Source: Candidatus Kuenenia stuttgartensis (lineage in GTDB: Bacteria > Planctomycetota > Planctomycetia > Pirellulales > UBA1268). From it: a DNA stretch of 39,995 bases. Below are positions 8,370 to 36,548 of the stretch, piece after piece; the first letter of the stretch is position 1, and each line of letters starts with the position of its first letter. A program made the position numbers and the translations under genes. The DNA is taken from contig CAMBSN010000018.1 of the NCBI GenBank assembly GCA_945870505.1, forward strand, positions 1 through 39,995, in the 5' to 3' direction. Under the pieces are notes generated by a model that saw nothing but the letters and a program-made list of their open reading frames with translations, did not search any database and had not been told where the DNA came from.

Positions 8370-8397
8370 CGAGGTTTCGCGTTCTCGGTGAGGGGCG

Positions 8398-9204
8398 TCA
8401 GGGGCGGATGTCGTGAAAGCACCGCTCGAGCGGCGACTGCACGGCGGCAGCGAAGCCACCGATCCAGGAGTCGGCCCCGCCGCACACCGCAGCGAGGAGC
8501 ACGAGCGAGGCCACCGCCTGGAGCAGCCCTTGGCCGGGGTCGAAGCCGACCGACCGCACGGCAATCGCGGCGACGAGGTGGCAGGCGAGCACGGCGACGA
8601 GCGCCGGCAGCGCGAGCGACATCGCGAGTGACAGACCGATCGAAGGCATCGTGGCGACGAGTTCAAGCAGGTCGTCACGGGCGGTCGCGGCGGCGACCGC
8701 GCCGATCGGCAGGCTGCGGACGCCATCGACGAGTCCAGCGACGACCACCTCGTGGCCCCCGGCGGCGACGAACCCCGCCAGCCCAAGCCACCAGGCGAGC
8801 CGCCCGACGCCGGCCGATTCCGAACCCGGACCGTCGCCGAAGTCGTCGGCCCAGGAGAGCCCGGTGACGGTGCCGAGCAGTTGGCCCGCCCACGACGCCG
8901 ACGCAAACACGGCTGCGACGGCCAGTCCGATTCCGAGCCCCACCACTGCCTCCCCGAAGAGGAGCCCCAGGATCGATGAGCCATCGACCACCGGTGTCGG
9001 CGATGCGGCGAGGGCCGCCGGAGTGGCGGCCATGGCGAGGACCGCGGCGACCGCTCCCTGAACGCGAAGGCCGGTACCCGTGGCCAGCGGCATGGCACCA
9101 GCCCAGACCGCCACGGCCATCCGCACGAGCACGCCGGCCGCCACCACCGCATGGGCCGGGGTGAACGTGGCCAGCCACGGCAGCATGTGCGGGTCGATCG
9201 GCAT
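8398..9204 (-). CDS. fliR: FliR/SctT-family export apparatus membrane protein
   Basis: Hydrophobic 268-aa protein between FliQ and FlhB homologues; gene order FliP-FliQ-FliR-FlhB supports it. Confidence 0.75.
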   Translation of the reverse strand: MPIDPHMLPWLATFTPAHAVVAAGVLVRMAVAVWAGAMPLATGTGLRVQGAVAAVLAMAATPAALAASPTPVVDGSSILGLLFGEAVVGLGIGLAVAAVFASASWAGQLLGTVTGLSWADDFGDGPGSESAGVGRLAWWLGLAGFVAAGGHEVVVAGLVDGVRSLPIGAVAAATARDDLLELVATMPSIGLSLAMSLALPALVAVLACHLVAAIAVRSVGFDPGQGLLQAVASLVLLAAVCGGADSWIGGFAAAVQSPLERCFHDIRP

Positions 9205-9229
9205 GGATCGCTCCAGTCGCAGCGTGGCC

Positions 9230-9484
9230 TCAGGGGCCGGCGGCCGCCTCACGAAACAGTTCGGCCAGCCGCTCGACCATCCACGGCAACGACACGACGA
9301 GGGCCGCGGCCATCGCCAGGGCTTTGGGCGCAAACCCCACGATCGGCTCGTGAACGCCGCTGGCAGCCTGCACGAGCCCCATCGCCACGCCCACCGCGAG
9401 CCCCGCCACGAGCACCGGCAGGATCACCAAGCAGCCGGCGATCACAGCCTGCCTCACGAGTTCCACGAGTTGCGACTCCGTCAT
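9230..9484 (-). CDS. fliQ: FliQ/SctS-family export apparatus protein
   Basis: MTESQLVELVRQAVIAGCLVILPVLVAGLAVGVAMGLVQAASGVHEPIVGFAPKALAM is FliQ-like; 84 aa, two TM. Confidence 0.85.
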   Translation of the reverse strand: MTESQLVELVRQAVIAGCLVILPVLVAGLAVGVAMGLVQAASGVHEPIVGFAPKALAMAAALVVSLPWMVERLAELFREAAAGP

Positions 9485-9516
9485 GATGCAGTCGCCTCCT
9501 TGCTCACCAGGGAAGT

Positions 9517-10344
9517 TCACGAGGGCAGTCCGCGGACGCTGTCGAGCAGCGTCCGGACGACGAGCGACCAGCCGTCAGCCGCGACAAACACGAGTAGCTT
9601 CAGCGGGAGCGACACCAGCGACGGCGGCAGCATCACGAGCCCCGTCGCCGTCACGAGCGTGGCCACCAGGATGTCGAGCACGAGGAACGGCAGCAGCATC
9701 CGGAAGCCGATCGTGAAGGCGGTCTCGAGTTCGCTGACGAGAAACGCCGGGAGCAGCACCTCCACCGGCACGTCATCGTAGGTCGCGGCCTGCCGGGGGC
9801 CGCCCGGGTGCCGTTCGAGGAACAGGAGCATCGTGTCGCGGTTGCCGGCATGCTCGATCTGGGCCGCCATCCAGCGGCGCAGGGGGAGCGAGCCCTTCGT
9901 CAACGCCTCGCCCGCCGTGAGTTCGCCCTGGTGGTACGGCTCGACGCCATCCCGCCAGGCCTGCGTCCAGACCGGCCACATCACCATGGCCGAGAGGAAG
10001 ATCGCCAGCGACGCGACAATCTGGTTCGAGGGAATCTGCGCGGCGCCCAGCCCCTGCCGGACGAGCGCCAGCACCACCGACATCCGCACGAAGCAGGTCG
10101 TCATGAGCAGCACCGCGGGCGCGAGGCTGACGATGCCAAACATCATCAGCGACGGCAGTAGCGACTCCAGGGGCCGGTCGCCGAGTCGGCTGAGCCACCC
10201 GCCCACCGCGGCCGACGACGACGCGGCCACCGCCGCCTGCGGATGATCGATCGCCTGCAGCGGACCGGCGAGGTCGTCGGCTGACGACGCGCGGCCGGTC
10301 AGGAGCACGGCGGCCACCGCGAGGACCACCGTGGCACGGCGCAT
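9517..10344 (-). CDS. fliP: FliP/SctR-family export apparatus protein
   Basis: LMMFGIVSLAPAVLLMTTCFVRMSVVLALVRQGLGAAQIPSNQIVASLAIFLSAMVM and PFLVLDILVATLVTATGLVMLPPSLVSLPLKLLVFVAADGW are FliP signatures. Confidence 0.92.
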   Translation of the reverse strand: MRRATVVLAVAAVLLTGRASSADDLAGPLQAIDHPQAAVAASSSAAVGGWLSRLGDRPLESLLPSLMMFGIVSLAPAVLLMTTCFVRMSVVLALVRQGLGAAQIPSNQIVASLAIFLSAMVMWPVWTQAWRDGVEPYHQGELTAGEALTKGSLPLRRWMAAQIEHAGNRDTMLLFLERHPGGPRQAATYDDVPVEVLLPAFLVSELETAFTIGFRMLLPFLVLDILVATLVTATGLVMLPPSLVSLPLKLLVFVAADGWSLVVRTLLDSVRGLPS

Positions 10345-10358
10345 GGCGAAGAGGGGAA

Positions 10359-10910
10359 TCACGCGCGGATCTCCCGCCGGCTCGCACGCCGGTCGGCGGC
10401 GGGAGCCACGCGAACACCCCGGCAGGCGGTGACGATCGCGTCGGTGGCCTGCGGGTCGGCGAGTTCGGCGAGCGTCTGGCAACCGGAAGCCGAGACACCG
10501 AGCAGGAGCGTCCGGGGACCGAATCGCACGATCCGGACCGACTGCTGACCGCCGAGCGACGCCTCGCCCAGGACCTCAAAGACGTCGTGGGGCAGCGCGG
10601 CGACCCGCCGCGCCGCGAACAGCCGATACCCCGCGAGCGCGGCGAAGGCACCGCCGAGGGCAATGAGGACCCGCCAGTCGGGGAGCGGACGCGGCGGTGC
10701 GACTCGTGGACTCTCAGACGACGGCCCACCCAGTGGCAGCGGTGCGGCCGAAGACGCGGCGGCGGTCGTGAGCGTGGCGGGCTCGACGCCACCGTCGGCG
10801 ACAAGCGGCTCGGGTGATGGGGCCACCGGCGCGTCGGCAGACGCCTGCCCGGCGGCCAGGAGGGCCACGGTGAGGACGGCGACAACGCGGTGGAGATGGG
10901 GGGAACGCAT
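10359..10910 (-). CDS. fliO: FliO-like export apparatus accessory protein
   Basis: Signal peptide, single TM, then FEVLGEASLGGQQSVRIVRFGPRTLLLGVSASGCQTLAEL as in FliO; located directly upstream of fliP. Confidence 0.7.
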   Translation of the reverse strand: MRSPHLHRVVAVLTVALLAAGQASADAPVAPSPEPLVADGGVEPATLTTAAASSAAPLPLGGPSSESPRVAPPRPLPDWRVLIALGGAFAALAGYRLFAARRVAALPHDVFEVLGEASLGGQQSVRIVRFGPRTLLLGVSASGCQTLAELADPQATDAIVTACRGVRVAPAADRRASRREIRA

Positions 10911-10923
10911 GATTGGATCAGGC

Positions 10924-12492
10924 TCACGCAGCCATCCGCCGCGGTGGAACGGCGGCGGTGGTGTCGGCATCGGGGGCATCGTCGACCGTGGTCCAGTCGA
11001 TCCGCGACCGCGGCGAACGCTGGCCGGCATCGGCCGTACGGCGGCGCGACGACCGCCCATCGGCGGACCGAGCGCCGCTATGAAACAGGATGTAGGCGAG
11101 GATCGCGGAGCACTTGGCGGTGAACACCATCCAGACCTCGCGGGGCACGTCGCCAAATCGCCCCTCGGAAACCGCCTGGATCGTCACGTCGATGTAGTCG
11201 CCGATCGTGCTGGGCGCCGCCGCCGGAGTGGCGGTTGCCGTCTGGTTGCCGGTGGCGGCCGGCGGGGCAGACGACGACACGGAACCCGCGGCACCCGGCC
11301 GGGGTGGCGGCTCAGGCCGCGATGAAACGACGGGGAACCTCGTGATCACGACCCGGCGGCCATCGGCTCGCGAAATGGGGGGCAGAAGTTCGAGGATGTG
11401 CCCCCGGAGTCGCTCCTCCTCCCGGCGATCGACCTCGGCCACGGCCATCTGCATATCGCGTTGCCGTGCAGACCTGACGACGGCATCAAACCAGGTCTCC
11501 GGTACCGCAACCGACACCACGATCGAGTCGATGCGGCCCTCGCGGGATGGCGAGGGCACCGGGGCGACGGCAGCCGCCTCTGTGACTTCCACCTCGGCGG
11601 GCGCGTTGGCATCCGCCACCCGTTGCTGCCGCGGCGGCAGGTTCGGTTCCACTGGCGGCGCAGGGGCCGTGTCGTCGGCGAACGTGACGGTCACATCGAC
11701 CACCGCTCCCTTCACGAACGCCAACCCCTGACGGACCTTGGAGACGAGGTGATGCTCGTGGGCGATCTGCCGGGCGAGGGCGGGATCCGCGACAGGCGGC
11801 GGCTCGGCGGCATCGACGGGCGAGAGCGGGCCGGCGTGGACGTGGCCGCTGCGGAGATCGGTGACGGCAACCTGCTCCGGGTCGAGCCCGGCGATCGACG
11901 CCGCCACGAGGACGCGGATCGCCTGCACGCGGGAGGGCTCCAACTCGACGTCGAGCTGCGTCCGCACGTTGACGCTCGCGGTCTGCGTTGGCCCGCCGCC
12001 GAGCGTGCCATCGAATGCCGCGCGGTCATTGACGTCGTAGAGCACCGCCGCCCGTTCGATGCCCGGCATCGAGCAGATGACGTGGGCGAGTTCCTCCTGC
12101 ACGGCCACGCGGAGCAGTTCCTCCTGCGCCGCCCTGCTCTGCCACGGGCTGTTGCTCTCGAGCGCGCGGCGGAGGCTGCTGCCGAACTCCCGGGGGAGCG
12201 CTTCGGCGTCGACGAGTGCCCGCATGTAGGCGCTCTGCCGCGGGCGCGACACCCAGACGCGGCCGTCCTCGGTGCGGTGGCCGCTGAGTTGCGCGCGGTC
12301 GAAGGCCGCCTCGACGATGGCCAACTCCGACGACGGCAGCACCGTGCCGGGGAGCAATTCCACCTCTTCGCTGGCGGGGCGGTCTCGCAGCACCCACGCG
12401 CCCCAGCCGATCGAGGCGGCGACGAGCCCCAGCGCGATCACCTGCGCGGGCGTGACCCGTGAGGAGCGGCTTGGTTCGGCGGATGTGTCCAT
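10924..12492 (-). CDS. FliF/SctJ-like ring protein, divergent
   Basis: N-terminal TM, ring-building-like region (SSELAIVEAAFDRAQLSG...VQEELAHVICSMPGIERAAVLYDV), C-terminal TM; adjacent to fliO. Confidence 0.65.
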   Translation of the reverse strand: MDTSAEPSRSSRVTPAQVIALGLVAASIGWGAWVLRDRPASEEVELLPGTVLPSSELAIVEAAFDRAQLSGHRTEDGRVWVSRPRQSAYMRALVDAEALPREFGSSLRRALESNSPWQSRAAQEELLRVAVQEELAHVICSMPGIERAAVLYDVNDRAAFDGTLGGGPTQTASVNVRTQLDVELEPSRVQAIRVLVAASIAGLDPEQVAVTDLRSGHVHAGPLSPVDAAEPPPVADPALARQIAHEHHLVSKVRQGLAFVKGAVVDVTVTFADDTAPAPPVEPNLPPRQQRVADANAPAEVEVTEAAAVAPVPSPSREGRIDSIVVSVAVPETWFDAVVRSARQRDMQMAVAEVDRREEERLRGHILELLPPISRADGRRVVITRFPVVSSRPEPPPRPGAAGSVSSSAPPAATGNQTATATPAAAPSTIGDYIDVTIQAVSEGRFGDVPREVWMVFTAKCSAILAYILFHSGARSADGRSSRRRTADAGQRSPRSRIDWTTVDDAPDADTTAAVPPRRMAA

Positions 12493-12527
12493 GATGTCGG
12501 TTCTGGTCGTGGGGTGGGAGACGGCGG

Positions 12528-13031
12528 TCAGGCAGCCTGCCGGCGGGCGCCGCGCCGCGGAAACCGGACGGTCACCGCCGTGCCTCCGGTGGCACAGGGC
12601 GAGACCGTCAACTCCGCACCGCATCGGGCGGCGGCGTCGCGGACGTCCTGCGGAATCCGAGCCGTGCCCGGCTGATCGGGTCCTGAATCGGCGATCTCCA
12701 CCTCGACCGCGTCGGTGGTGGCGACCACGGCGACGTCAACTTCGCGAAGAGAGGGGCCGTCGGATGTGCCCGTGGGGCCGGCGGCGTTGGCGAAGGCTGC
12801 GGCAACGAGCGGCTCGAGCAGGTCGCGGACCACCGCCGGATCGGCGTCGATCTCGTGCCCTTCACCGCCATCGAGTCCGACGCGGACAGCGGCGTGGGCC
12901 GCCGATTGGCGGCCGACGAGCGCGTCGACGACGGTCCGAAGCGAGTTCGGACGCGCCGCAACCAGCGGCAGGATACGGGGCTCCACGTCGATCGAGGAGC
13001 GGTGGGCATCGCGGCCCGCATGGAGTGTCAT
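12528..13031 (-). CDS. GHKL/HATPase_c-like protein, divergent
   Basis: VRDLLEPLVAAAFANA, DAVEVEIADSGPDQPG, CGAELTVSPCATGGTAVTVRFPRR follow the N-box, G1 and G2 order of histidine-kinase-type ATPase domains. Confidence 0.5.
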   Translation of the reverse strand: MTLHAGRDAHRSSIDVEPRILPLVAARPNSLRTVVDALVGRQSAAHAAVRVGLDGGEGHEIDADPAVVRDLLEPLVAAAFANAAGPTGTSDGPSLREVDVAVVATTDAVEVEIADSGPDQPGTARIPQDVRDAAARCGAELTVSPCATGGTAVTVRFPRRGARRQAA

Positions 13032-22894: not shown

Positions 22895-24721
22895 TCAGTG
22901 TGCCGCCGCCGCCGCCGCGGCGGCAGCATTTGGCGGATCGGTCTGCATGAGGTGATCCTTCTCAACGCCCGGCACCGAGTACTCGTAGGGCCCGCGGTGC
23001 ACGATCGGCTGGTAGTCGAAGTTGCCGTGGCCCGGCGGGCTCGGCGCGGTCCACTCCAGCGTGTTGGCGTTCCACGGGTTTCTGCCGGCGAGCGGGCCCC
23101 AGAACATGCTGTAGATGAAGTTGGCCGCGAAGATCACCTGCGTGGCCACCATGCCGATGGCGCAGTAGGTCATGAAGGCGTTCATCGGCTGGAGGTGATG
23201 GAACGTCTCGTAGTGGTAGGCGTCGGCGAGCCGCCGCGGAAAGCCGACCGCCCCAAGGATGTGCATCGTGAAGAACGTGCCGTTCAAGAAGATGAACGTG
23301 AGGAAGAAGTGCACCTTCCCCCAGAACTCGTTCATGGTGCGGCCGAACATCTTCGGGAACCAGAAGTAGATCGCCGCCCAGACACCCATCGCCGTGCCAG
23401 CGAAGAGGACGTAGTGGAAGTGGGCCACGATGAAGTAGGTGTCGTGAATGAAGATGTCGACCGGCGTGGCGGCCATGAAGATGCCGGAGAGGCCGCCGAT
23501 GATGAACATCGACACGAACGAGAGGGCGAAGAGCATCGAGGTGGTGAACTGGATCTTGCCGCCCCACAGCGTGCCGAGCCAGTTGAAGGTCTTCACAGCG
23601 CTGGGCAGGGCGATCATCATCGTTGACACCATGAAAGTGATGCCGAGCGCCGGGTTCATGCCCGACATGAACATGTGGTGGCCCCAGACGATGAAGCCGA
23701 GGCCCGCGATGCCGGCGATCGAATAGACCATCGGCCGGTAGCCGAACAGCGGCTTGCGGGCGAAGACGGTAAGAATGTCGCTCACCATGCCCATCGCCGG
23801 GAGGATCATGATGTAGACGGCCGGATGGCTGTAGAACCAGAAGAGATGCTGCCAGAGGAGCGGTTGGCCGCCGCCGGCACCCGCGATCGCGTTGTTGACG
23901 ACGTTGCCTTCCGGCGAGAAGAAGCCCGTGCCGAGCATCCGGTCGGAGAGTTGCATGAACCCGGCGGCCGTGAGCACCGGCAGGGCGAAGGCCTGGAGGA
24001 TGGCGGTGATGAACATCGCCCAGATCGTCATCGGGAGGCGAAACATCGTCATGCCGGGTGCCCGCATGAGGATGATGGTCGTCATGTAGTTGACGCTTCC
24101 GAGCATGCTGGAGACGCCGACCATCGTGAGGCCGAGTAGCCACATCGTCTGCCCCATGCCGCTGGCCGGCGACGAGGCGGGGTTCGTCGAGAGCGTGGGG
24201 TAACTCGTCCAGCCGCCCGAAGCCGCACCTCCTTCGACGAAGAAGCTTGCTCCGAAGAAGAAAAAGGCGGGCCACATGAACCAGTACGACAGCATGTTGA
24301 GCGTCGGAAACGCCATGTCATCGGCGCCGATCATCAGCGGGATGAGGAAGTTGCCGAACGCACCCGCGAGGATCGGGATGATCACGAGGAAGATCATCAC
24401 CGAGGCATGCATGGTAAAGAGCATGGTGTAGAACTCGGGCGACATCTGGCCACCCTCCTGCGCGAAGAGCTTGCCGATCACCGGCACGTCGGACCACGGC
24501 CATGCCACCTGCCAACGGACGGCGAGGGCGAGCAGGCCGCCGATCAGAAACCAGAGCAGCGTCGAAAACAGGAACTGCAGCCCGATGACCTTGTGGTCCT
24601 TCGAGAACACATAGGTCGAGAGGAAGTGCGACAGCCCCGCCTTCGGCGCATGGCCGTGGGCGTGTCCAACGACGGTGCCGTGCTCGACGGCGGGCGTTGC
24701 GGTGACGGGGGGCGGGGTCAT
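22895..24721 (-). CDS. coxA: Cytochrome c oxidase subunit I, YS-containing (A2-type)
   Basis: LFWFYSHPAVYIMILPAMGMVSDI, GHHMFMSGMNP, DTYFIVAHFHYVLF. Confidence 0.96.
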   Translation of the reverse strand: MTPPPVTATPAVEHGTVVGHAHGHAPKAGLSHFLSTYVFSKDHKVIGLQFLFSTLLWFLIGGLLALAVRWQVAWPWSDVPVIGKLFAQEGGQMSPEFYTMLFTMHASVMIFLVIIPILAGAFGNFLIPLMIGADDMAFPTLNMLSYWFMWPAFFFFGASFFVEGGAASGGWTSYPTLSTNPASSPASGMGQTMWLLGLTMVGVSSMLGSVNYMTTIILMRAPGMTMFRLPMTIWAMFITAILQAFALPVLTAAGFMQLSDRMLGTGFFSPEGNVVNNAIAGAGGGQPLLWQHLFWFYSHPAVYIMILPAMGMVSDILTVFARKPLFGYRPMVYSIAGIAGLGFIVWGHHMFMSGMNPALGITFMVSTMMIALPSAVKTFNWLGTLWGGKIQFTTSMLFALSFVSMFIIGGLSGIFMAATPVDIFIHDTYFIVAHFHYVLFAGTAMGVWAAIYFWFPKMFGRTMNEFWGKVHFFLTFIFLNGTFFTMHILGAVGFPRRLADAYHYETFHHLQPMNAFMTYCAIGMVATQVIFAANFIYSMFWGPLAGRNPWNANTLEWTAPSPPGHGNFDYQPIVHRGPYEYSVPGVEKDHLMQTDPPNAAAAAAAAAH

Positions 24722-24764
24722 CAGGATTCCTCCGGAAACAAAAGGGATTCCACTCGGCGATTGG

Positions 24765-25565
24765 TCATTCGGCGGCGGCCACGTCGGCAGCCTCCGGCGG
24801 GGGCTGCGTGGCACCCTGCTCGGCATACTTCCGTTCGAGCCATGCATCGAAGGCGGCTCGCGGCTCGAACGTGACGCGGCCCTTCATCTTATAGTGGCCC
24901 CAGCCGCAGAGTTCGGCGCAGACGATGTCGAACTCGCCAGCCTCGCGGGCCTTGAACCAGACGGGGATCTTCATGCCCGGCACGGCGTCCTGCTTGATGC
25001 GGACGTTCGGCAGGAAAAATGAGTGGAGCACGTCCATGCTCTTGAGTTGAACCAGCACATCTTCGTCGATGGGGAGGTGCAGGTCGTTGACAAGAAACAG
25101 GTCGTCGGCTGTGCCGAGCGTGCCGTCGCGGCCCGGATACCGCAGCCGCCACTCGAACTGCCGTCCCACAACCTCCACCGTCGGAGACATCGCGGGCCGC
25201 CGCATCTTCACGTCGGCCCAGGCGTTCATCTGGTAGATGGCGAGAAACAGGAGCGTGGCCGCGGGAATGATCGTCCAGACCACTTCGAGCGTGTGGCTGC
25301 CCTGGATGTAGGTCGCCTCGCCCTTCTGCTTTGCCGCGTCGTACTTCCACATGAACCAGAACAGCAGCACTTCCGTGACCACGAACACAACGCCCGTCAA
25401 CGCGAGGATGAAGTAGAAGAGCGAGTCGATGCTCGCCCCATGCTCCGACACGTCTTTCGGCAGCCAGTAGTCGTAGGCGGGAGCGATGGCGAACGTCGCC
25501 ACACCCAGCACCGGGACGGCGAGAAAAAGCAGGGACCAGAAGATTCCGGCGAGTCGCTTGCCCAC
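24765..25565 (-). CDS. coxB: Cytochrome c oxidase subunit II (CuA domain, no fused heme c)
   Basis: LHSFFLPNVRIKQDAVPGM...FDIVCAELCGWGHYKMKG CuA motif; two N-terminal TM helices; no CXXCH. Confidence 0.95.
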   Translation of the reverse strand: MGKRLAGIFWSLLFLAVPVLGVATFAIAPAYDYWLPKDVSEHGASIDSLFYFILALTGVVFVVTEVLLFWFMWKYDAAKQKGEATYIQGSHTLEVVWTIIPAATLLFLAIYQMNAWADVKMRRPAMSPTVEVVGRQFEWRLRYPGRDGTLGTADDLFLVNDLHLPIDEDVLVQLKSMDVLHSFFLPNVRIKQDAVPGMKIPVWFKAREAGEFDIVCAELCGWGHYKMKGRVTFEPRAAFDAWLERKYAEQGATQPPPEAADVAAAE

Positions 25566-25604: not shown

Positions 25605-26900
25605 CTAGAGCCGATCCTTCGCCACCATCGGGCGATCAGCCCCAAGTTCGCCATCGAACTCATAGGGCAGCGACCGGATGTAGTTGACGATGTGCCAGAT
25701 TTCCGCGTCGGCGACACTCCCCTTGCCACCAGGGCCCGAGGGGCCGACGCCAGGCATCGGTGCGCCGTTGATACCCGTGTAGAGCCGGCGGTAGAGATCG
25801 ATCGGACGGCGACCGCCGCGGTACAGGCCAAGCCTCAGATTTCGCGGCGGGATGGGCCGCGGCCGGAGGGCGTCGCCCTCGATCACGTCAGTTGCTGCAT
25901 GGAGCCACGCCGCCCGGCCGGCATCGTCCTGAGACGCACCAAGGCCGCCGGCAACCTCCTTGCCCCACTCGACGATCACCTTGTTCCAATCGTCGTAATC
26001 ATTGGCCTGACCGTCGCCGAGCGCCGTCACGCCGTGACACTTCACGCAGCCACCATCGCCGTGGAAGAGCGCCCGGCCGCGGGCGACCGACTCGTGATTG
26101 GCAGGGTCGTCGCCGGGCTTCGTGAAATCCAAGGTGGTGGGCACCGCAGCGATTGGAATCCGGGCCTCCTCGGCCCCCTGCCACTTTTCGACGATCGGCG
26201 TGAGGATCTCGTCAACAAGAAACTCTTTCGTCGTCGGCATCGTGTCGTCGACGCCAAGTTCCTGCTCGGCGTAGGTGTAGAGCGCCAATTCCGTCTCGCC
26301 CCGCATCGACAGGTAGCGAACGTATTCCACCAGTGCGTCAACCTTCGCAGGGGGCAGGAGCGCGAACGATGGCATCGACGAGCCGGGCACGCCGTCGTGC
26401 AGAACGCGAGTGAGGTCGTCGCGAGCAGGCCGGGCATCCCGCCAGGTACTCTTGAACTTGTACTTCCCGGGACGATAGTCGCGGGGATACGGATTGAGAA
26501 ACGCCGCGGTCGGCCCCATACCGTCGCCGCTGATGCCGTGGCAATGGGCACAGTGCTCGCGATAGAGGCCGTTCTTACGACCCACGATGTCGCTGCGGAC
26601 CGGGCCGGCGGCAAGTTGAAGCTTCGCCAGATCGAGACCCGTTTCGGCGAGGGCCACAGGCGCGTCGGGCGTGCCGTACATCGCCTCCAGAATCGTGGCT
26701 ACCTGCTTCTGCCGGTCGTTGGCCCACGACGACCAGGGCTTTTCCATCCCCGACTCCGGGGCCGCGGTCTTGGTGGCCTGCACCATGTTGAGCCGGAACG
26801 ACGCGGGGGGCGTTTTGCCACACCCGACGGCGGTGGCGACGAAGGCCATGATGAAGGTGAATCGCATGGTGGATCGAGTCGCTGCGGACGACGTCTTCAT
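25605..26900 (-). CDS. Diheme c-type cytochrome lipoprotein
   Basis: CAHCHGISGDGMGP and CVKCHGVTALGDG; lipobox-like VATAVGCGK after start MKTSSAATRS. Confidence 0.88.
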   Translation of the reverse strand: MKTSSAATRSTMRFTFIMAFVATAVGCGKTPPASFRLNMVQATKTAAPESGMEKPWSSWANDRQKQVATILEAMYGTPDAPVALAETGLDLAKLQLAAGPVRSDIVGRKNGLYREHCAHCHGISGDGMGPTAAFLNPYPRDYRPGKYKFKSTWRDARPARDDLTRVLHDGVPGSSMPSFALLPPAKVDALVEYVRYLSMRGETELALYTYAEQELGVDDTMPTTKEFLVDEILTPIVEKWQGAEEARIPIAAVPTTLDFTKPGDDPANHESVARGRALFHGDGGCVKCHGVTALGDGQANDYDDWNKVIVEWGKEVAGGLGASQDDAGRAAWLHAATDVIEGDALRPRPIPPRNLRLGLYRGGRRPIDLYRRLYTGINGAPMPGVGPSGPGGKGSVADAEIWHIVNYIRSLPYEFDGELGADRPMVAKDRL

Positions 26901-26938: not shown

Positions 26939-27823
26939 TCACGTGCCGATCGATCCCGCCGGAACTTCGAGCGTGCCGAGGTCCTTGTTCTCGTCGGCCT
27001 GCAGCGTGATTACGAAACGGCCCTTGGGATTCCACTTGAGATCGGGTCGCTCGAGCACCACGCCGCCACCAGAACCGGTGGAACGGGAGTGCCAAACCTG
27101 AAACTCCAGCGGTTCGCCCGCGGGCAGGTCGGGGATCGCAAACGATCCGTCGGTGGCGGAGACGGCAACGTAACCGTCCTTGCGAAAGATCACGTACGAC
27201 TTCATCCATGGATGGATGTTGCAGGTGGCGGTCTTCGGCGCGCCCATCTCCGTGTCGGGCTTGTAGGTGGTGCCCTGACCGGCGGGAATCAACTGGTTGA
27301 AGCTCGTGCCGTCGATGTTGGTGTTGTGCCCCACCGGATCGCTGTTTCGCACGTCGATCGGCTGGCCGACCCGGGCGGCGAACACCGGGGTGAGGAACTC
27401 GCAGTTCTTCTGGTCAAACACCTGCGGCGCATCGGGAACGGGATTCTTCACGCGGCTCGACTTCCGCACGAACACCACCACGTCGGCAAGCCCCTTGCTG
27501 GAGGCGTCCACCCGCAACGACTGGTCGAAGAGCTTTGCAGACTTGCCGCAGACTTCGGTGTCCTTATCGACGGCCAGTGCCTTCGGCTGTCCGGGGTCGC
27601 CAGTGAAGACGAAACGCCCCTTGAGCCCGGCCCAGCCGGTGCCTGTGGCGGCTGCCTCGCCCCCACTCACGGCTGCCGCCGTTGTCGACGCGAGCCCCTC
27701 GCGGATCGTCACCGCGGCCGCCGCGTCGGCGACGGGGCTCGATACCCGCCGCGGCCCGCAGCCGACCACGGTCGCGGCGACCATGCAGACACACAGGGCG
27801 AATGAGCGACTGGGCAACATCAT
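26939..27823 (-). CDS. Cupredoxin-like lipoprotein (paralog 1)
   Basis: CVCMVAATVVGCGP lipobox; VGHNTNIDG and CNIHPWMKSYVIFRKDGYVAVSATDGSFAIPDLPAGE. Confidence 0.75.
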   Translation of the reverse strand: MMLPSRSFALCVCMVAATVVGCGPRRVSSPVADAAAAVTIREGLASTTAAAVSGGEAAATGTGWAGLKGRFVFTGDPGQPKALAVDKDTEVCGKSAKLFDQSLRVDASSKGLADVVVFVRKSSRVKNPVPDAPQVFDQKNCEFLTPVFAARVGQPIDVRNSDPVGHNTNIDGTSFNQLIPAGQGTTYKPDTEMGAPKTATCNIHPWMKSYVIFRKDGYVAVSATDGSFAIPDLPAGEPLEFQVWHSRSTGSGGGVVLERPDLKWNPKGRFVITLQADENKDLGTLEVPAGSIGT

Positions 27824-27849
27824 GGACACTGAAACTCGCGTTGTGAGGA

Positions 27850-28629
27850 TCACTTCTGGAAGACAGCTGGGGCGAGCAGGATCTCACCGAGGTCGGTGCC
27901 ACCCGCGGCCACGGCCACCTTCTTGCGGCCCTTCGACGCCTTCTCGGCCTTTCCTCCGATCGTCATCTCGCCGAGGTAGCCTGCCTTCTCATGCCAGAAC
28001 TGCAGTTCGACTTCGCCGACCGGCACGTCCTTGATCTCGAACGTGCCATCGGCCTTCGAGACGGCGCCATACGGATTCGGCCGGACCACGAGCCAACCCT
28101 TCATCCAAGGGTGGATGTTGCAGGTCACCTGGGCGGGAACGGCCTCGTCGCTGGTGAACTTGATCGCCGTCTCGCCTCCCGCTGGGATCAGGTTGTTGGA
28201 CGGCGGGTTCTTCACCGTGGCGATGTTGCTGTTGTGGCCGACGGTGTCGGAGTTCTTCACCACGAGGTCCTGGCCCACCTGCACGAACGCGACGTGCGGG
28301 TCGAACCGGCAGTCCTTGTTGTCGAGCGTCACCTTTGCGGCGGCCGCCTTGGCGGCTTCGGGGTTGACCTTCACGTCCTTGTCGCGAACGAACACCACGA
28401 CGTTGGCAATCCCCTTGTCGGCACCGACGACGAGTTCCTCGGCGAGCAGTTTGTGCTTTCCGCAGACCTCCGGATCCTTGTCGACCTTCAGCTCACCCGC
28501 CGACGGCGGGGCACCACCGAACACAAACTTGCCCTTGATCGTCCCCCACTCGTCGGCGGCCACGATGTCGCCGAGGAACAGCGTGGCGAGGATGACGGCG
28601 GCAATCGAAAGCGGGGGAAGGCGTGTCAT
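27850..28629 (-). CDS. Cupredoxin-like exported protein (paralog 2)
   Basis: VGHNSNIATVKN and CNIHPWMKGWLVVRPNPYGAVSKADGTFEIKDVPVGE. Confidence 0.75.
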   Translation of the reverse strand: MTRLPPLSIAAVILATLFLGDIVAADEWGTIKGKFVFGGAPPSAGELKVDKDPEVCGKHKLLAEELVVGADKGIANVVVFVRDKDVKVNPEAAKAAAAKVTLDNKDCRFDPHVAFVQVGQDLVVKNSDTVGHNSNIATVKNPPSNNLIPAGGETAIKFTSDEAVPAQVTCNIHPWMKGWLVVRPNPYGAVSKADGTFEIKDVPVGEVELQFWHEKAGYLGEMTIGGKAEKASKGRKKVAVAAGGTDLGEILLAPAVFQK

Positions 28630-28694: not shown

Positions 28695-31600
28695 TCAGTT
28701 TAGTGAGGCGGCGGCGGACGGGGAGCGGGTGGATGAAAGTGGTGCCGATTCAGCCGCCGAAGCTGAACCCGACGCCGCCCGCGGTTGGCCGGCGGTGGGC
28801 TGCTCTGCTGCCGGCTGAGCCGACTGGCCGGCTGGCGCCGCCGGGGGCTGCTGCCGCAGGAACGCTTCGAGCGACATGTTTCGCTTGGCAAACGCGTCGA
28901 ACTGCATGAGCAGGTCGGTGAGGGCATCCACCTGCTGCTCACTCGTGCCCTGGTAGAGGTCCTGACTCACGGGCTGGTTGTAGGGGATGTTCACCGGCAT
29001 ACCCGTGTACGGCAGGAACCGCTTCGGGTTGGCGATCCAGCCGTGGACGTAGTCGGGCCGCAGCCGCTCGTGCACCCGCTGCAACTGCGGCGCTAGCGCC
29101 TTCACGCTGCCCGCCGGCGCGTAGTCGCCCACGAGGTGGCACTTCACGCAATAGTTGTTGTTGGTCACGATCTTCAGGGCCCCGTCCAGATGACCCGGGT
29201 GCGCCTGCTCCGCCGCGGCGACCGATGACTCGTCGAGCCGCGGGTCGTAGACGTACGGGTATTCGGCACCGTCTACAGAAGCGAAGTAGTTGACGAGCGC
29301 CGCGGCCTTGGCGGAATCGAAGTTGAACTTAGGCATCCGCAGCACGGCCGGTGGGCGGATCGGATGGGGATTGAGCAGGAACTTGTGCAGCCACGCCGAC
29401 TGCACCTTCTTGCCCTCGCCCACCAGCGGCGGCGGGAGCCAGCCCCAGGCGTCGTCGGGCTTCACGTTCGGGTTCACCTGCTTCTCGTCGGCGATCACCA
29501 CGGGGAAGAGCAACTTGGCGAGGTCGCCGCCCCAGCCCGGGTAGTGGTGCCCCGCGGCGAGTGCATCCTGCGGAACGATCAGATTTTGGCCGCCCACGAT
29601 CCGCGGCGCACCGTCCACGAGGGCGTCCTGCCAGAGCGCGAACGGACGATGCACCACCGACTCGGCGTCACCCTCCTCGATCGGCACACCGTCCTCGTCA
29701 ACGAGCTGCGGCTTGCCCGTCTCTGGATCGAGCGTCGGCATCCCGACCAGGATCGCCTTTCGACGGCCCTGCCGGTCGGTGGTCAGCGAGACGGCGACCT
29801 GATCGGGGGTGAAGTGAGGAGACAGGAACGGATAGTCGGCGAAGGCCGGAGGCTCACCGAGCGACTCGGGCTTGTAGCGGATGTCCCAGCGATCCATGCG
29901 AAGCTGATGGCAGCCACCGCAGTTGTACTGCTCCGCCACCACCAGGCCGTCGAGGCGGGCCTGCTCCCGCGGGGCGGGTTGATGCACGTACTGCGGAGCC
30001 GGCGGCTCGGCGACCAGGCCGAGCACGAACGTCATCACCGCCTCTCGCTGGTCCTCGTTGAAGGGGAACTGCGGCATCCGGTACCGCTCATTGTAGGTTT
30101 TGTTCTCGGCCTTCTTGTAGTCGTAGCTCCGCGGCGCCCGGAGCTTCTGCCAGAGGAAGCCCTCCCGCTCGTGGCCGAGAAGTTTCTCGAGGAAGTAGCC
30201 GATGCTGGGATCGAGCGATTCGGGATCGACGTGGGCCTCGGTATGAGTCGCCTTGTAGGCGAGATCGGGTGCCAGCGACCCATCCTCCGCCGTCGGCTCG
30301 GCGCCGCCGTGCTGCCCGTGACCACCCGAGGCATGATGCCCGTGGCCGTGGCCGCCGGCCAACTGGCGCGTCACCAAGTGCGACACCTGCTCGAACGCGA
30401 TCCGCGAGGGATCCTTGCGGCCCCAGTCGGCGAGCGCGGCACCTGCCGGCTTGCTGTCCTCGAAGCCGGGGATGTCGTGGCACGAGTAGCAGGCAAGCTT
30501 ATTAATCGTCTTCTTGCCCACGTAGGTGAGCAGAAGGCGGTCGCGTTCGGCCCCGTCAAGGCCCACGAGCATCTGCTCGTCGCCCTGGATACCGGCCGCG
30601 TCGCTGACACCCGCGGCGAGCACCTGCTCGGCGCGAACCACCGTGAACCGCTCCTTGAGGTACATCAGCGCAAGTTCGTCGAGTGCCTTCCGCTCCTCTG
30701 CCGACAGTGAACCAGCCGACGCCATCGGGAAGGACGTCTCGCCGTCGAGCGTCTCCACCTGCCAGTCGGCGGCCGGCTTCCAGTCGCCGCCCGACCCCAT
30801 CAGGTATTCGGTCGCGTCGGCGGCGGGATCGCTCACGCTGCCGTCGGCGAGCGTCACCGGCTCGAGCAAGACGTTCGGCATGATCGTCTTGGGGTGGTAC
30901 CGCGACGGCTCGCGGAGCCAGCTGTAAAGCCACTGCTTGCCCTGCGGCAGCGAGGCCGCCTTGCCACCGATCCGCGACAGGTTGGGGCCGTGCATGCTCG
31001 TGGCCTCGGGGAAGTCGTCGTGCTGGTGGCAGGCGAGGCAGCCCCGGAGTTGGACGACCTTGCGGCCCCGCGCGGCGTCGGCCGTCGCGGTGACGCCGTC
31101 GAACGGCTTGACGTAGTCGAACGGGGCACTCGACGTGGTGAGGTAGTGCACCATGGAGCGGATCTCGAGCGGCTCGTACCGCTTCGACTCCTCGAGTTGC
31201 TTGCCCTCGAGGTGGCTCCAGAGTCCAAAGAACCGGGGCATCTTCGTCGAGGGGCGGAACTCCTGCGGATTTCTCAGCCACGAGTAGAGCCAGTCGAAGC
31301 CAACCTTGCTGGCGACGTGCCGCAGGCTCGGGCCGACTTTCGGTAGCGTGCCAGGTGTCTCGGGATCCTTGAGGACCGTGGCGAGTTGGTGCGAGCGACC
31401 GGAGAGCTTGGCATCGGCACCAGCGGCCGCGTCGCGATCGAGCGCCTCGCGGAGCCGCACCCGTGATTCATGGCTGTCGGGGCCCGAGCGAACGTCGGTC
31501 ACCCAGCGGGCGACGGTCTCCCCCATGTCCTTGAGGCCGGGATCGGTGGCGAGGGCCTCGGCCACCTCGTGGTAGTTCGACTCGAGCCGCATGTCGGGGC

Positions 31601-33266
31601 CGATTCGCTTCTCGGGTCCGGCCCAGCCGTTGATCTCGTGGCATCCATAGCAGCCGTACTGCCTGATGAGGTGATAGCCCTCGACGAGCTTTGGCGCGGG
31701 TGGCTCGGGGAACTTCTCGCTCGGCTCGAGATCGACCACCTGGTGGTGGCACTTCAGGCAGCTCGACTCCTCGAACCGCTCAGGCAGCATCGGCTGGATC
31801 CAGTGGTGGTTGTTGAACCAGCCATGCTCATCGTGCCACTCGTGGGCCTGTTTGGGCGTGTTGGGCGTGTGCGAAGACCACTTGAAGCTCGTGGCGCTCC
31901 CCTGCCCCTGATGGCAGATCGTGCAGCCGAAGTTCTTCATGGGATGCGGGCTCGAATCGCCCACGAAGAGGTCGAGCCGCGGGTGGCTCGAATAAGGCTG
32001 CGGCACGCCGCGGCGCACCGTGAGCGAGAGGGGCTTGCCCCAGGCGGGCGTGTCGAGAAGCGACGTGACGGCCATCTTGCGAGCCAGCGTCTTGCCGCCG
32101 TCCACCGCCTCGATCACGTCGCCGGGCTGGAGGCCCGCGACCGCCGCCGGCGACTCGGGCACCACCACGCTGACGGTCGGATCATCGGAAGCAAACAGCC
32201 CGTGGGCCGCAAGCCGCAGGCCGTAGGAGGCTTCGAGCCCGTCGTTCCCGTCGCCGGCCGGCGCCTCCGGCTTCGCCGCAGGCGTCGCGAGCGCCACCGT
32301 CATGGTGGACGCCTCGGGATACCCGGGCTCGGTCGGCGCTCCAGCCATCGACTTGTCCATCCCGCGGTGGCAGGTCGTGCAACGGTCGAAGCGGGCGACG
32401 TCTCGGAAGTTGTTGTTGAGGGTGAGCTGCGGCAGCCAGATCTGATCGACCCTGATCGGGCTGTTGAAGGCTTCGAGCACCGGGAGTTCGAGCAGACTCT
32501 TTCCAGCATTCGGCTGCCGCATGGCGAGCGTCTTCTGGAGTTGCACAAGCTTGGCGCGATGGTCGGCCAAGGCCTTGGCCGCTTCATCCTCGCCCTTGGT
32601 CATCTGCCCCAGCAGAGCGTCGAGTTTCTTGCGGTGGGTGTTGGCATCCTGAAACGCCAGGCTCGCGGCAGCCACCTCCTGACGCTTGGAGTCGGCGAGC
32701 ACGAGCAGCGAGGCCTGGCGATCGGCCGGGGCTTCTTCGGCCACGGCGAGCTCGTAGTCGGCGCGGTTCTTGTCGAGCTCGGCCCGCCGCAGTTTCAGCG
32801 CGCCGGCCAGGTTGTCTTCGCGAAACTTCGTTCGCTTGACGATGTCGCGAAGCCGGGCCAGGAGGTCGCCGCGAACCACCAGCCGCTGCTCCGGGTCCTG
32901 CTGGGACTTCAGCTGGTCGATGTCGAGTTCCGCCCGATCGGCTGCCTGGGCGTCCTCGGTCACCGTCCGGACCTGCGTGATGAACGCCTGGGCCACGTCG
33001 CCGTCAAGATCAGCTCGCCGCGCGTCGCCGAGGGCCGCCTCGAGTTCGTCTCGCCGGGCCTCGTAGGACTTGGAATCCTGCTCGTCAATCCGCGCCTGCG
33101 CGTTCCAGGTCTCGAGTTCGCGGAACTCGCGGGCGTACTGCTTCCACGGACGGTTGTGATCGCCCGTCAACACGAACACGGTCGCCGCCAGGAGCGCCAC
33201 GGCGGTCGCCGCGAACACCACGTGCAGGAGTTTGAGGTTCCACCAGGTCTGTTCTGTTGCGGGCAT
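28695..33266 (-). CDS. Octaheme c-type cytochrome with N-terminal TM, coiled-coil region and PDZ-like domain
   Basis: Eight CXXCH motifs: CTTCH, CTICH, CLKCH, CYGCH, CLACH, CYSCH, CGGCH, CVKCH; PDZ-like VVVPESPAAVAGLQPGDVIEAVDGGKTLARKM. Confidence 0.92.
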   Translation of the reverse strand: MPATEQTWWNLKLLHVVFAATAVALLAATVFVLTGDHNRPWKQYAREFRELETWNAQARIDEQDSKSYEARRDELEAALGDARRADLDGDVAQAFITQVRTVTEDAQAADRAELDIDQLKSQQDPEQRLVVRGDLLARLRDIVKRTKFREDNLAGALKLRRAELDKNRADYELAVAEEAPADRQASLLVLADSKRQEVAAASLAFQDANTHRKKLDALLGQMTKGEDEAAKALADHRAKLVQLQKTLAMRQPNAGKSLLELPVLEAFNSPIRVDQIWLPQLTLNNNFRDVARFDRCTTCHRGMDKSMAGAPTEPGYPEASTMTVALATPAAKPEAPAGDGNDGLEASYGLRLAAHGLFASDDPTVSVVVPESPAAVAGLQPGDVIEAVDGGKTLARKMAVTSLLDTPAWGKPLSLTVRRGVPQPYSSHPRLDLFVGDSSPHPMKNFGCTICHQGQGSATSFKWSSHTPNTPKQAHEWHDEHGWFNNHHWIQPMLPERFEESSCLKCHHQVVDLEPSEKFPEPPAPKLVEGYHLIRQYGCYGCHEINGWAGPEKRIGPDMRLESNYHEVAEALATDPGLKDMGETVARWVTDVRSGPDSHESRVRLREALDRDAAAGADAKLSGRSHQLATVLKDPETPGTLPKVGPSLRHVASKVGFDWLYSWLRNPQEFRPSTKMPRFFGLWSHLEGKQLEESKRYEPLEIRSMVHYLTTSSAPFDYVKPFDGVTATADAARGRKVVQLRGCLACHQHDDFPEATSMHGPNLSRIGGKAASLPQGKQWLYSWLREPSRYHPKTIMPNVLLEPVTLADGSVSDPAADATEYLMGSGGDWKPAADWQVETLDGETSFPMASAGSLSAEERKALDELALMYLKERFTVVRAEQVLAAGVSDAAGIQGDEQMLVGLDGAERDRLLLTYVGKKTINKLACYSCHDIPGFEDSKPAGAALADWGRKDPSRIAFEQVSHLVTRQLAGGHGHGHHASGGHGQHGGAEPTAEDGSLAPDLAYKATHTEAHVDPESLDPSIGYFLEKLLGHEREGFLWQKLRAPRSYDYKKAENKTYNERYRMPQFPFNEDQREAVMTFVLGLVAEPPAPQYVHQPAPREQARLDGLVVAEQYNCGGCHQLRMDRWDIRYKPESLGEPPAFADYPFLSPHFTPDQVAVSLTTDRQGRRKAILVGMPTLDPETGKPQLVDEDGVPIEEGDAESVVHRPFALWQDALVDGAPRIVGGQNLIVPQDALAAGHHYPGWGGDLAKLLFPVVIADEKQVNPNVKPDDAWGWLPPPLVGEGKKVQSAWLHKFLLNPHPIRPPAVLRMPKFNFDSAKAAALVNYFASVDGAEYPYVYDPRLDESSVAAAEQAHPGHLDGALKIVTNNNYCVKCHLVGDYAPAGSVKALAPQLQRVHERLRPDYVHGWIANPKRFLPYTGMPVNIPYNQPVSQDLYQGTSEQQVDALTDLLMQFDAFAKRNMSLEAFLRQQPPAAPAGQSAQPAAEQPTAGQPRAASGSASAAESAPLSSTRSPSAAASLN

Positions 33267-33352: not shown

Positions 33353-34678
33353 TCAAAAGTTCAGCGAGATCTCGGGGATGCTGATGATGTATTTCAGGTT
33401 CAAGGTCCAGCGAAGGATCATTTTGATGGGCAGCGTGAGCATGAGCAGCATCAGGTTCGCCATCACCATGTAGCGGACGAACCCAAGTTTGGCGAAGAAC
33501 CCGCGAAAGATCGTCACCGCCAGAAGCGGCGGTAGCAGGAGCAGGTAAGCGCCCATGACGAGCAACCCGGGAGCTTCCCGGAGAAGCACGTAGCCCGCCT
33601 GGACCAGCCCACTCGCGCCGGCCGGTGCCTTGGGCAGGGGCTGGTCGAGCAGGTTCACCCAGAACATCTGCGGCAGGTCAACGTTGTTGAGCACCTCGAC
33701 CTTGTAGGGCGTCCAATACTCGAACGGCCCGAAAAAGTTCCAGTTGGGACCACGGAGGAACGTTCCCAGGATGATCAGCGTGATCCAGAGCACGAAGAAG
33801 CCGAACTGGTAGGTCAGATAGCTAAACTTTCGCTCTTCGATCGAGTAGTAGCCATTACCGTTCTTGTTGAAGTCGAGGTAGGGCATCGCCATCAGGCCGA
33901 AGACGACAAGGCTCGGCAGCACCACGCCCGCATACCAGGGGTCGAAGTAGACGAGCATCTCCTGAAGCCCGAGGAAGTACCACGGGGCCTTCGATGGGTT
34001 TGGCGTCTTCACGCTGCTGGCCGGTTCCTCGAGCGGCGCTGGCAGGAAGATCGCCCAAACCAGCAGGAACGCCATCACGGCCACCATGCAGATCAGTTCG
34101 GTGTAGACAAGGTCGGGCCAGACGAGCACCTTCTCGTCGTTCTCTTTCTCAACCGTCGGTAGGCCGCGGGCGATCCGGTCGTCGTTGACGACGGCCTGCT
34201 TGGTGGCGAGCCAGGTGAAGAAGGCGAGCAGGAAGACGAGGCCCACGATCGGCACGTTGTCGGGCTTCATCACAATCGCGGCAAAGTTCTCGTCGGCCAT
34301 CGACAGGCCCATGAGCACGAGCATCGCATTGAGGATGCCCCAGGCCACCATCGGCTTGACGAAGAAACTGCGAAACACGAACAGCACCGTGAGCAGCGCG
34401 AACGTGCCGAGGGTGTAGAGCATGGGTCCGGAGAGACGATTGACGAGGCTGCGGACCGAGGCGGGCAGCGCCGGCACCATCCCGGGGGAGGCCGAGAGGG
34501 CGAGGCTCGCGAGCACCATCATCGCGATCGCCAGAGCCGTCCAGACCATTGCCCAGCCCAGCTGTCCCTTCTTCCGCCAGAGGATCAGCGCGGCGATCCC
34601 GTTCATGATCGCGATGCAGGAGTAGTAGCCGCCTAGAAAGCCGGCGACGTCCTGAAGGAAAAAGCCATTGGAATGCAT
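33353..34678 (-). CDS. Cytochrome b C-terminal half (subunit IV-like) with extra N-terminal TM domain
   Basis: TPNPSKAPWYFLGLQEMLVYFDPWYAGVVLPSLVVFGLMAMPYLD; 441 aa, many TM helices. Confidence 0.88.
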   Translation of the reverse strand: MHSNGFFLQDVAGFLGGYYSCIAIMNGIAALILWRKKGQLGWAMVWTALAIAMMVLASLALSASPGMVPALPASVRSLVNRLSGPMLYTLGTFALLTVLFVFRSFFVKPMVAWGILNAMLVLMGLSMADENFAAIVMKPDNVPIVGLVFLLAFFTWLATKQAVVNDDRIARGLPTVEKENDEKVLVWPDLVYTELICMVAVMAFLLVWAIFLPAPLEEPASSVKTPNPSKAPWYFLGLQEMLVYFDPWYAGVVLPSLVVFGLMAMPYLDFNKNGNGYYSIEERKFSYLTYQFGFFVLWITLIILGTFLRGPNWNFFGPFEYWTPYKVEVLNNVDLPQMFWVNLLDQPLPKAPAGASGLVQAGYVLLREAPGLLVMGAYLLLLPPLLAVTIFRGFFAKLGFVRYMVMANLMLLMLTLPIKMILRWTLNLKYIISIPEISLNF

Positions 34679-34688
34679 GTCTGTGTCG

Positions 34689-35462
34689 TCACAGCGGCCC
34701 GCTGATGCCGCCGTCCTTTCGCACGCGCCAGAAGTGGATCGCCAGAAGCAGCGCCACCGCGAGCGGGATCGCGATGCAGTGGAGCACGTAGAACCGGTTG
34801 AGCGTTTCCTCGCCGACGAACCGGGCGCCGAGGAGGCCAAAGCGGGCGTCCGAGGCATCGGTGATCATGTCGATTCCGCCCACCGTGAGGAGTTGCTGCC
34901 CCGGGCCTTCGTAGCCGAGGAAGGGGGTGGCACGGGCCATGTTCGAACCCACCGTGATGGCCCAGATCGCCAGCTGGTCCCACGGCAGGAGGTAGCCGGT
35001 GAACGAGAGCAGGAGCGTGAGCAGCAGGAGGATCACGCCGATCACCCAGTTGAACTCGCGTGGCGGCTTGTAGCTTCCAGTGAGGAACACCCGGTACATG
35101 TGGAGCCAGGTGGTGATCACCATCGCGTGCGCCCCCCAGCGATGGAGTTCGCGAAGGATGCCGAGGCTCGTCACGTCGCGGAGGGCGAGGATGTCGTTGT
35201 AGGCCCATTCGAGCGTGGGCCGGTAGTAGAACATCAAGAGCACGCCCGTGACCGTCTCCACCAGAAACAGGAAGAAGGTCACACCGCCCATGCACCACGT
35301 GAACGACAGGGCGATGCCCTGCTTCTTGATCGAAACCGGGTGAAGGTGGAGGAAGAAGTTGGTGAGCATCACCACGATCCGGTTGCGCCGATCGAGCGGC
35401 ATCGGATGGCGGAAGATGCTCTTCCAGATCTGAGAGTTGCGGATGGTCTCGCCGATGGCCAT
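34689..35462 (-). CDS. Cytochrome b N-terminal half, b6-type
   Basis: [33 protein letters not shown] (H-x13-H) and [18 protein letters not shown] (H-x14-H); [13 protein letters not shown]. Confidence 0.94.
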
Positions 35463-35483: not shown

Positions 35484-36548
35484 TCAGACGGTCACGTATG
35501 AATCGGGGTCGGCCCACTGGCCGAGCTCTTCCTGGAACGTCTTGCTCTTGTCGATCTCGAGTTGCCCGTCGTCGGCGACGCGGATCGAATATCGCTCGAG
35601 CGGACGAGGCGCCGGCCCCTCGAAGTTGACGCCGTCCTTGTAGAAGCCGCTCCCGTGGCAGGGGCACTTGAACTTCTGCTCGGCCTCGAGCCAGCTGGGC
35701 GTGCAGCCAAGATGGGTGCAGACGGTTTTGAGGGCGTAGATCTGCTGCAGGCCCTGAAAGTCGCCGTTGACGACCCAGACGCCGTACTGCGGGACGTACT
35801 TCGTCTCCACCTTGCCCGATGGGAAGGCATCCTTGAAGCCGACCTTGAACTTGCTCGGCGGCTCAGCGAGCACGTTCGGAAACAGGAACCGAGCCAGGCC
35901 GAGCGAAAACAGGCCGCCGGTCACCGCGAGGGCGGAGAAGCCAACAGCCATCGCCGACCCTAGGGCGATCTGAAGGAAGCCACGGCGGTCTTCGGCGTCC
36001 TCTCCCTTCTTGGCGGGCTTCAGGGGCTTGGAAGGAAGCGTGGCCACCGTCCGCGACGGCGCGGCCTTCTCCTCAACAGGCTTCGCCTCGCGGGGCTTCG
36101 GTGCCGGACGCGATGGGGCGTCGGCCTTGCTCATCGGCCCCGGCTTCGCCCCGGCGCGGGCGGCGGCCAGAATGCTGGCGGTATCGCGTTGCACGCCGGT
36201 CTTCGCTGCCCCGGCGGCAGCGATGGGCTTCGCAGTTGGCTTGGCCGCAGCGGATTTGGCGGCGGGAGCAGTTGCCGGCTTGGCGGCGGGTTTGGCGGCC
36301 GGGGCCTCACCGGCCTCTTTTTTCGCCCTGGCCATGGCCATGATGTCTGCCACGCTCGGCCGGGCGCCGCCTGCGGCCGGCTTCAGCTTCCCGGCGGTCG
36401 CCTTTTCCGCGGTTTCCTCAGCGGCCGGTTGGGCGGCCTCCGGTTCCGCGGCCGGTGTTGGAGCCACAGACGCTGCCCCACCCTTGCCGTCCGACGACCG
36501 GGCAGCCGCGAGAATCTCAGCCACCGACATCTTCTTCTTGTCTGCCAT
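35484..36548 (-). CDS. Rieske 2Fe-2S protein with ~185-aa N-terminal extension and Tat-like signal
   Basis: CTHLGC and CPCHGSGF; DRRGFLQIALGSAMAVGFSALAV Tat-like TM anchor; Ala/Pro/Lys-rich N-terminus. Confidence 0.93.
   Translation of the reverse strand: MADKKKMSVAEILAAARSSDGKGGAASVAPTPAAEPEAAQPAAEETAEKATAGKLKPAAGGARPSVADIMAMARAKKEAGEAPAAKPAAKPATAPAAKSAAAKPTAKPIAAAGAAKTGVQRDTASILAAARAGAKPGPMSKADAPSRPAPKPREAKPVEEKAAPSRTVATLPSKPLKPAKKGEDAEDRRGFLQIALGSAMAVGFSALAVTGGLFSLGLARFLFPNVLAEPPSKFKVGFKDAFPSGKVETKYVPQYGVWVVNGDFQGLQQIYALKTVCTHLGCTPSWLEAEQKFKCPCHGSGFYKDGVNFEGPAPRPLERYSIRVADDGQLEIDKSKTFQEELGQWADPDSYVTV

Follow-up and report, generated by a model that had tools for sequence, protein, structure and literature searches.

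An octaheme c-type cytochrome of 1523 aa, with a PDZ domain inserted between its first two hemes, occupies the place of cytochrome c1 or f in a Rieske/cytochrome b gene cluster of the 39,995-nucleotide stretch analysed here (the window). The protein is most probably the c-type subunit of a b6f-like Rieske/cytochrome b complex of the Kuenenia Kustd1480-1485 kind. The preliminary description had read it as a possible giant electron-output subunit whose PDZ-like segment would tie it to the oxidase encoded downstream. The first part of this reading is well supported by the conserved operon, the c1/f place of the gene and a published Kuenenia homologue, while the second part has no specific support. 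An octaheme output subunit of a Rieske/b complex is of an already known kind; its PDZ insert and its association with cupredoxins and an aa3-type oxidase are new.

The octaheme protein and its gene cluster

The cluster is composed of the following genes.

35484–36548, minus strand: Rieske protein whose N-terminal extension is long and Ala/Lys-rich; Kustd1480 (9rk3) is its best solved relative
34689–35462, minus strand: cytochrome b6-like N-terminal half (Pfam, NCBIfam)
33353–34678, minus strand: subunit IV-like protein/cytochrome b C-terminal half with extra TM helices (Pfam, NCBIfam, hydropathy)
28695–33266, minus strand: octaheme c-type cytochrome with PDZ insert, 1523 aa, in the c1/f place; eight invariant CXXCH
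27850–28629, minus strand: cupredoxin-like protein A with an H...CNIHPWM type-1 copper-like motif (Pfam and motif)
26939–27853, minus strand: cupredoxin-like protein B with an H...CNIHPWM motif like that of A (motif)
25605–26900 (start approximate), minus strand: diheme class I cytochrome c (Pfam and motifs)
24765–25565, minus strand: CoxB, oxidase subunit II with a CuA-type CxxxCxxxH motif (Pfam, NCBIfam)
22895–24847, minus strand: CoxA (Pfam, NCBIfam), the sole COX1-family oxidase found in the genome
17946–22853, minus strand: genes read by eye from their translations as CtaA, CtaB, CoxC, CoxD, SCO and DUF420

The octaheme gene follows the Rieske gene and the two genes of the split cytochrome b, confirming the order given in the preliminary description. 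Cys57 of the cytochrome b6-like protein aligns with the cysteine of the b6 YCLGG motif (heme c_n site). Ahead of its TM helix the Rieske protein carries a ~190-aa Ala/Lys/Pro-rich stretch that exceeds that of the Kuenenia protein. The tandem cupredoxin-like proteins, which are weakly named by Pfam, are candidate blue-copper carriers, their H...CxxHxxM motif being kept in 89/92 and 60/61 relatives, respectively. This pair (26939–28629, minus strand) is found between the octaheme and diheme c genes in nearly all relatives. Elsewhere in the window, FlhB/YscU-family and YscJ/FliF-family genes lie in a GC-rich stretch (7635–12624, minus strand) and belong to a cluster for flagellar or related export.

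The octaheme coding sequence is a single open frame of 1523 aa and a stop codon whose product begins with MPATEQTW. Its start codon is confirmed by the conservation of the N-terminal residues, M1, P2, A3, E5 and T7 being invariant in 17 aligned homologues. The features of the protein are given below in order from its amino terminus.

33162–33224, minus strand: N-terminal transmembrane anchor, aa ~15–35 (hydropathy and predicted helix 5–36)
32472–33149, minus strand: charged long-helix region, aa 40–265 (structure prediction and composition)
32367–32381, minus strand: heme 1, CTTCH, invariant
31992–32318, minus strand: PDZ domain, aa 317–425, between heme 1 and heme 2 (Pfam and predicted structure)
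31911–31925, minus strand: heme 2, CTICH, invariant
31746–31760, minus strand: heme 3, CLKCH, invariant
31638–31652, minus strand: heme 4, CYGCH, invariant; probable ligand Met676
31026–31040, minus strand: heme 5, CLACH, invariant, PF00034 match; probable ligand Met796
30477–30491, minus strand: heme 6, CYSCH, invariant; probable ligand Met1064
29907–29921, minus strand: heme 7, CGGCH, invariant; probable ligand Met1311
29136–29150, minus strand: heme 8, CVKCH, invariant, in a SoxX-like domain; probable ligand Met1423

Open reading frame, hydropathy, predicted helices and motifs agree with the architecture initially described, namely one protein of ~1523 aa with an N-terminal TM, a charged coiled-coil-like region and eight CXXCH. 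Hydropathy identifies one TM only (aa 16–34). Residues 40–265 are 36% K/R/D/E and are predicted to form long helices, e.g. 125–176 and 181–250. This region is the counterpart of the long helices reported for Kustd1485, which wrap halfway round the Kuenenia complex, the Rieske protein included (PMC12954380), and which offer, by analogy, a possible explanation for the helical region of the window's octaheme.

The family, the operon, the eight heme sites, the five methionines discussed next and the PDZ fold are established by sequence or prediction. All eight CXXCH motifs (aa 296, 448, 503, 539, 743, 926, 1116 and 1373) are invariant in the 17-row alignment, and the probable heme ligands are assigned from conservation. 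M676, M796, M1064, M1311 and M1423 are likewise invariant, with one found behind each of hemes 4–8, and would fit one His/Met heme each. The C-terminal half of the protein, where Pfam and NCBIfam recognise class I cytochrome c and SoxX, has no fold match when taken as a whole; its single-domain SoxX/cytochrome c matches have weak E-values, a result that leaves room for a relative. Hemes 1–3 have no conserved Met of the kind seen at hemes 4–8, and the invariant His428, His441 and His466 suggest that they are bis-His ligated. The likely plan, judged from these residues, is a tri-heme bis-His module beside the membrane part, followed by a series of five domains with Met-ligated hemes. Note that the predicted structure of the heme 2–4 part (about aa 428–560), modelled without hemes, is of low confidence.

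For this organism we infer complex membership, stoichiometry, heme ligands and PDZ role as well as the following electron path. The single TM would anchor the octaheme protein beside cytochrome b/subunit IV, with its long helices packed around the core and the Rieske domain. The Rieske protein would hand an electron to the (probably bis-His) hemes 1–3, from which it would move along the five class I domains, exit to the cupredoxins and/or the diheme c encoded next, and reach the CuA of the aa3-type oxidase. Insertion of the PDZ domain would have come later, at a loop between hemes 1 and 2 that tolerates it.

Conservation of the cluster across the phylum

The order Rieske-b6-IV-octaheme-cupredoxin(s)-diheme c-Cox is the same, as far as contigs allow, in 80 loci obtained from a scan of bacterial genomes, and is therefore not due to chance. 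It recurs in relatives at the level of class and of phylum as well. Nearly all of these loci are from planctomycete MAGs, Adhaeretor mobilis HG15A2 being the one named complete genome. Orthologues of CtaA, CtaB and CoxC are found in the same order in most of the 80. The search of plasmids gave no match. PDZ-type octahemes with 66–75% identity to that of the window are present at L097, L101, L112, L116, L119, L131, L134 and L151, in MAG records titled Candidatus Kuenenia stuttgartiensis; this title looks wrong because the true Kuenenia protein (locus L083) is quite different.

Some match to the octaheme protein is found in 209 of 294 sampled genomes of the phylum, a figure that includes many single-domain matches and is no count of octahemes. 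Twenty distant loci, picked among the better matches, were examined in full. Their homologues all have exactly eight CXXCH (20/20), and in most of these loci the octaheme gene comes after those of the Rieske protein and both b halves, while at some the neighbours are unrecognised or the contig ends. Three genomes from the window's own order (G029, G030, G038) have no full octaheme, showing that some lineages can do without the complex. No paper describing the cluster in aerobic planctomycetes was found among open-access full texts.

The PDZ insert and its possible partners

The insert between hemes 1 and 2 is, by its predicted structure, a true PDZ domain. It scores 34 bits with PF17820 (PDZ_6), above the cut-off of 27, and its AlphaFold model (aa 317–425) has a pLDDT mostly of about 83–92. 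Among solved PDZ domains the best alignment of this model (VIA-align) is with PDZ1 of Scribble (Z 11.7, rmsd 2.3, 88 residues). The PDZ-like segment first placed at 32005–32215 is thus real and larger (about 31992–32318), and the fold on which that claim depended is present in the prediction. Tyr348-Gly349 is kept in 17/17 alignment rows, with the Gly falling in the place of the carboxylate-binding loop. PDZ domains are normally peptide-binding modules; a domain for peptide recognition within a respiratory electron wire is unusual. A search of open-access full texts found no paper on a PDZ domain in a multiheme cytochrome. The insert is the new part of the window's octaheme, as opposed to the known kind of octaheme subunit that carries it.

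The first two CXXCH motifs are 152 residues apart in the window protein versus 39–113 in most PDZ-less relatives. A profile built from the alignment detects the PDZ domain in 79 of the 80 close loci, which, as profile and loci are related and some loci are truncated, is no independent test. It is absent from 19 of the 20 distant loci, the exception being L072, where Pfam agrees. At L079 and L082 the same site carries unnamed inserts (heme 1–2 spacing of 195 and 247 aa, respectively) in which Pfam finds no PDZ match. The short spacing or other inserts of PDZ-less relatives identify the heme 1–2 loop as an insertion site.

The PDZ insert is mainly a feature of Pirellulales. In a quick tree its presence needs two changes, one for a Pirellulales clade and one for L072, whose very long branch prevents one gain from being told apart from two; a separate acquisition by L072 is possible. 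At the latter locus (L072:4300-11234, genome G205) the gene order of the octaheme complex is unchanged and the PDZ domain occupies the same place. Its b6 is very divergent, with 62% to that of the window, lower than in most of the distant loci examined.

The likeliest role of the domain is a local protein contact in the periplasmic part of the complex (packing, assembly or holding of a partner's tail), with the PDZ domain neither taking part in electron transfer nor required for the partnership with the oxidase. A general structural or assembly contact is the default reading. Comparison of the C-termini of the cluster proteins did not find a diagnostic PDZ ligand. Those of CoxB and of the octaheme protein itself show no conservation among the cluster tails compared. 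The tails of b6 and subunit IV are equally conserved with and without PDZ, and the diheme c tail ([RK]DR[FLM]) is conserved among near relatives only.

The Rieske C-termini are compatible, by sequence, with a hydrophobic-x-hydrophobic PDZ ligand, yet this is not exclusive to PDZ-bearing loci. In 64 such loci the Rieske tail has Y/F at -3 (64/64), V/I at -2 (62/64) and V/A at 0 (63/64). These ends, together with the modelled wrapping of the Rieske protein by the Kuenenia homologue (PMC12954380), would agree with a PDZ domain that holds the Rieske tail and so positions the head domain or limits its movement. Similar tails are nevertheless present in PDZ-less relatives (FVEV in L073, FLKV in L083, FLPV in L080), so that the reason for the pattern may be structural; at L072 the PDZ domain coexists with a Rieske protein ending in EHGVG; and the PDZ-bearing loci are related, so their number is no independent evidence. 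Capture of the Rieske tail is, on balance, unlikely. A wider proposal is that the PDZ domain, mainly in Pirellulales, might hold the C-terminal tail of the Rieske protein's mobile head, or that of the diheme c, and thereby gate or shorten electron transfer. We consider it doubtful; if true, it would define a PDZ-controlled respiratory complex, mainly of Pirellulales.

A supercomplex in which PDZ-ligand contact ties the octaheme/bc complex to the aa3 oxidase, as initially suggested, is improbable. The oxidase genes do lie just downstream of the octaheme gene, the PDZ domain keeps the invariant Gly after Tyr in its carboxylate-binding loop, and the diheme c of close relatives has the terminus A[RK]DR[FLM], which could serve as a D-x-hydrophobic ligand. 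However, the C-termini of CoxB are not conserved, nor is the diheme c tail beyond near relatives. Moreover, the PDZ-less loci L070, L071 and L089 have the order Rieske-b-b-octaheme-cupredoxin-diheme c-CoxB-CoxA as in the window. Because these relatives keep the same oxidase cluster, partnership with the oxidase is independent of PDZ, and a tie through this domain has no specific support. The local contact described above is preferred.

Other complexes of the genome and comparison with known systems

The genome codes for a second Rieske/cytochrome b complex on contig C139 (L032:68-2709, G000), in which a diheme c domain is fused to cytochrome b. G029 and G030, which have no octaheme, encode a single cytochrome b each, of this diheme-fused type. 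Cytochrome c1 (PF02167) has no match in the genome, which is 87% complete, nor does this family match P0001; apocytochrome f (PF01333) has only a below-cut-off match, on another contig. A further oxidase beside CoxA, or a c1, could be missing from such an assembly. Alternative complex III was rejected for this genome, in which NrfD has no match. A separate c1/f gene linked to another bc operon, which would weigh against the octaheme as output subunit, is thus represented in part: the other complex exists, but its c-type component is a fused diheme, with cytochrome c1 undetected and cytochrome f below cut-off. This complex does not touch the argument drawn from the octaheme operon itself. Although its presence, with the large size and many hemes of the octaheme protein, would suit a periplasmic enzyme or electron store that acts on its own and has only the operon in common with the complex, such a role is very improbable given the phylum-wide adjacency to cytochrome b/IV, the lack of any family match to HAO/OTR-type octahemes (hydroxylamine oxidoreductase type; Pfam, NCBIfam) and the published placing of the Kuenenia homologue in the complex (PMC12954380).

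Similarity to the ExtP/ExtQ/ExtS proteins of a selenite/tellurite reduction operon is found for the window's cytochrome b halves, which match ExtP (260 bits, cut-off 290) and ExtQ, and for the last heme region of the octaheme protein, which weakly matches ExtS (NCBIfam). These matches are all under the curated cut-offs and the Ext operon differs from the window cluster.

The actinobacterial bcc-aa3 supercomplex (QcrABC and CtaC-F) has a multiheme c subunit, the diheme QcrC. The window system resembles it in having a c subunit with several hemes and, probably, a reductase that is coupled to an aa3 oxidase. It differs in that its c subunit is an octaheme with no match to the QcrC model (NCBIfam), and QcrC carries no PDZ domain.

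The b6/IV split, the heme c_n cysteine and the b6f-type Rieske protein are shared with cytochrome b6f. The output subunit of the window complex, unlike that of cytochrome b6f, is an octaheme, and its subunit IV has more TM helices.

The closest known system is that of Kuenenia. The Rieske protein of L083 is identical across all 117 residues to PDB 9rk3, named Kustd1480 of Kuenenia stuttgartiensis in a study of b6f-related Rieske/b complexes in which a hexa- or octaheme c replaces cytochrome f (PMC12954380). The octaheme encoded behind the L083 Rieske gene (956-aa open frame) is taken, from its position, to be Kustd1485. The window's Rieske protein is closest to Kustd1480 (9rk3; 2.7e-37), followed by Kuste4569 (3.4e-19). 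Common to the window and Kustd1480-1485 are a split b6-like cytochrome b with subunit IV, the same Rieske subtype and, directly after subunit IV, a one-TM subunit with long N-terminal helices and eight CXXCH. Unlike that of the window, the Kuenenia octaheme has about 950 aa, its first two CXXCH are 39 residues apart and it has no PDZ domain. The Kuenenia cluster includes a gene proposed to encode an NAD(P) oxidoreductase, and the stretch examined there has no recognised oxidase genes. Electron bifurcation to NAD(P)+ without an ordinary Q cycle, as proposed for Kuenenia, would fit the same complex type and the heme c_n Cys kept in the window; it is highly unlikely here, since no NAD(P) oxidoreductase ORF is found between or beside the window's b genes and that of Kuenenia (L083:1541-3241) has no counterpart. 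The window complex is for this reason a homologous variant rather than the same NAD(P)H-forming complex, and the NAD(P) oxidoreductase subunit is perhaps an addition of the Kuenenia branch, no defining trait of the complex type. The octaheme-for-cytochrome-f arrangement of anammox Kuenenia occurs widely across the planctomycete phylum, where aerobic lineages encode it together with an aa3-type oxidase, so that the unusual anammox complexes become comparable with an aerobic-type respiratory module.
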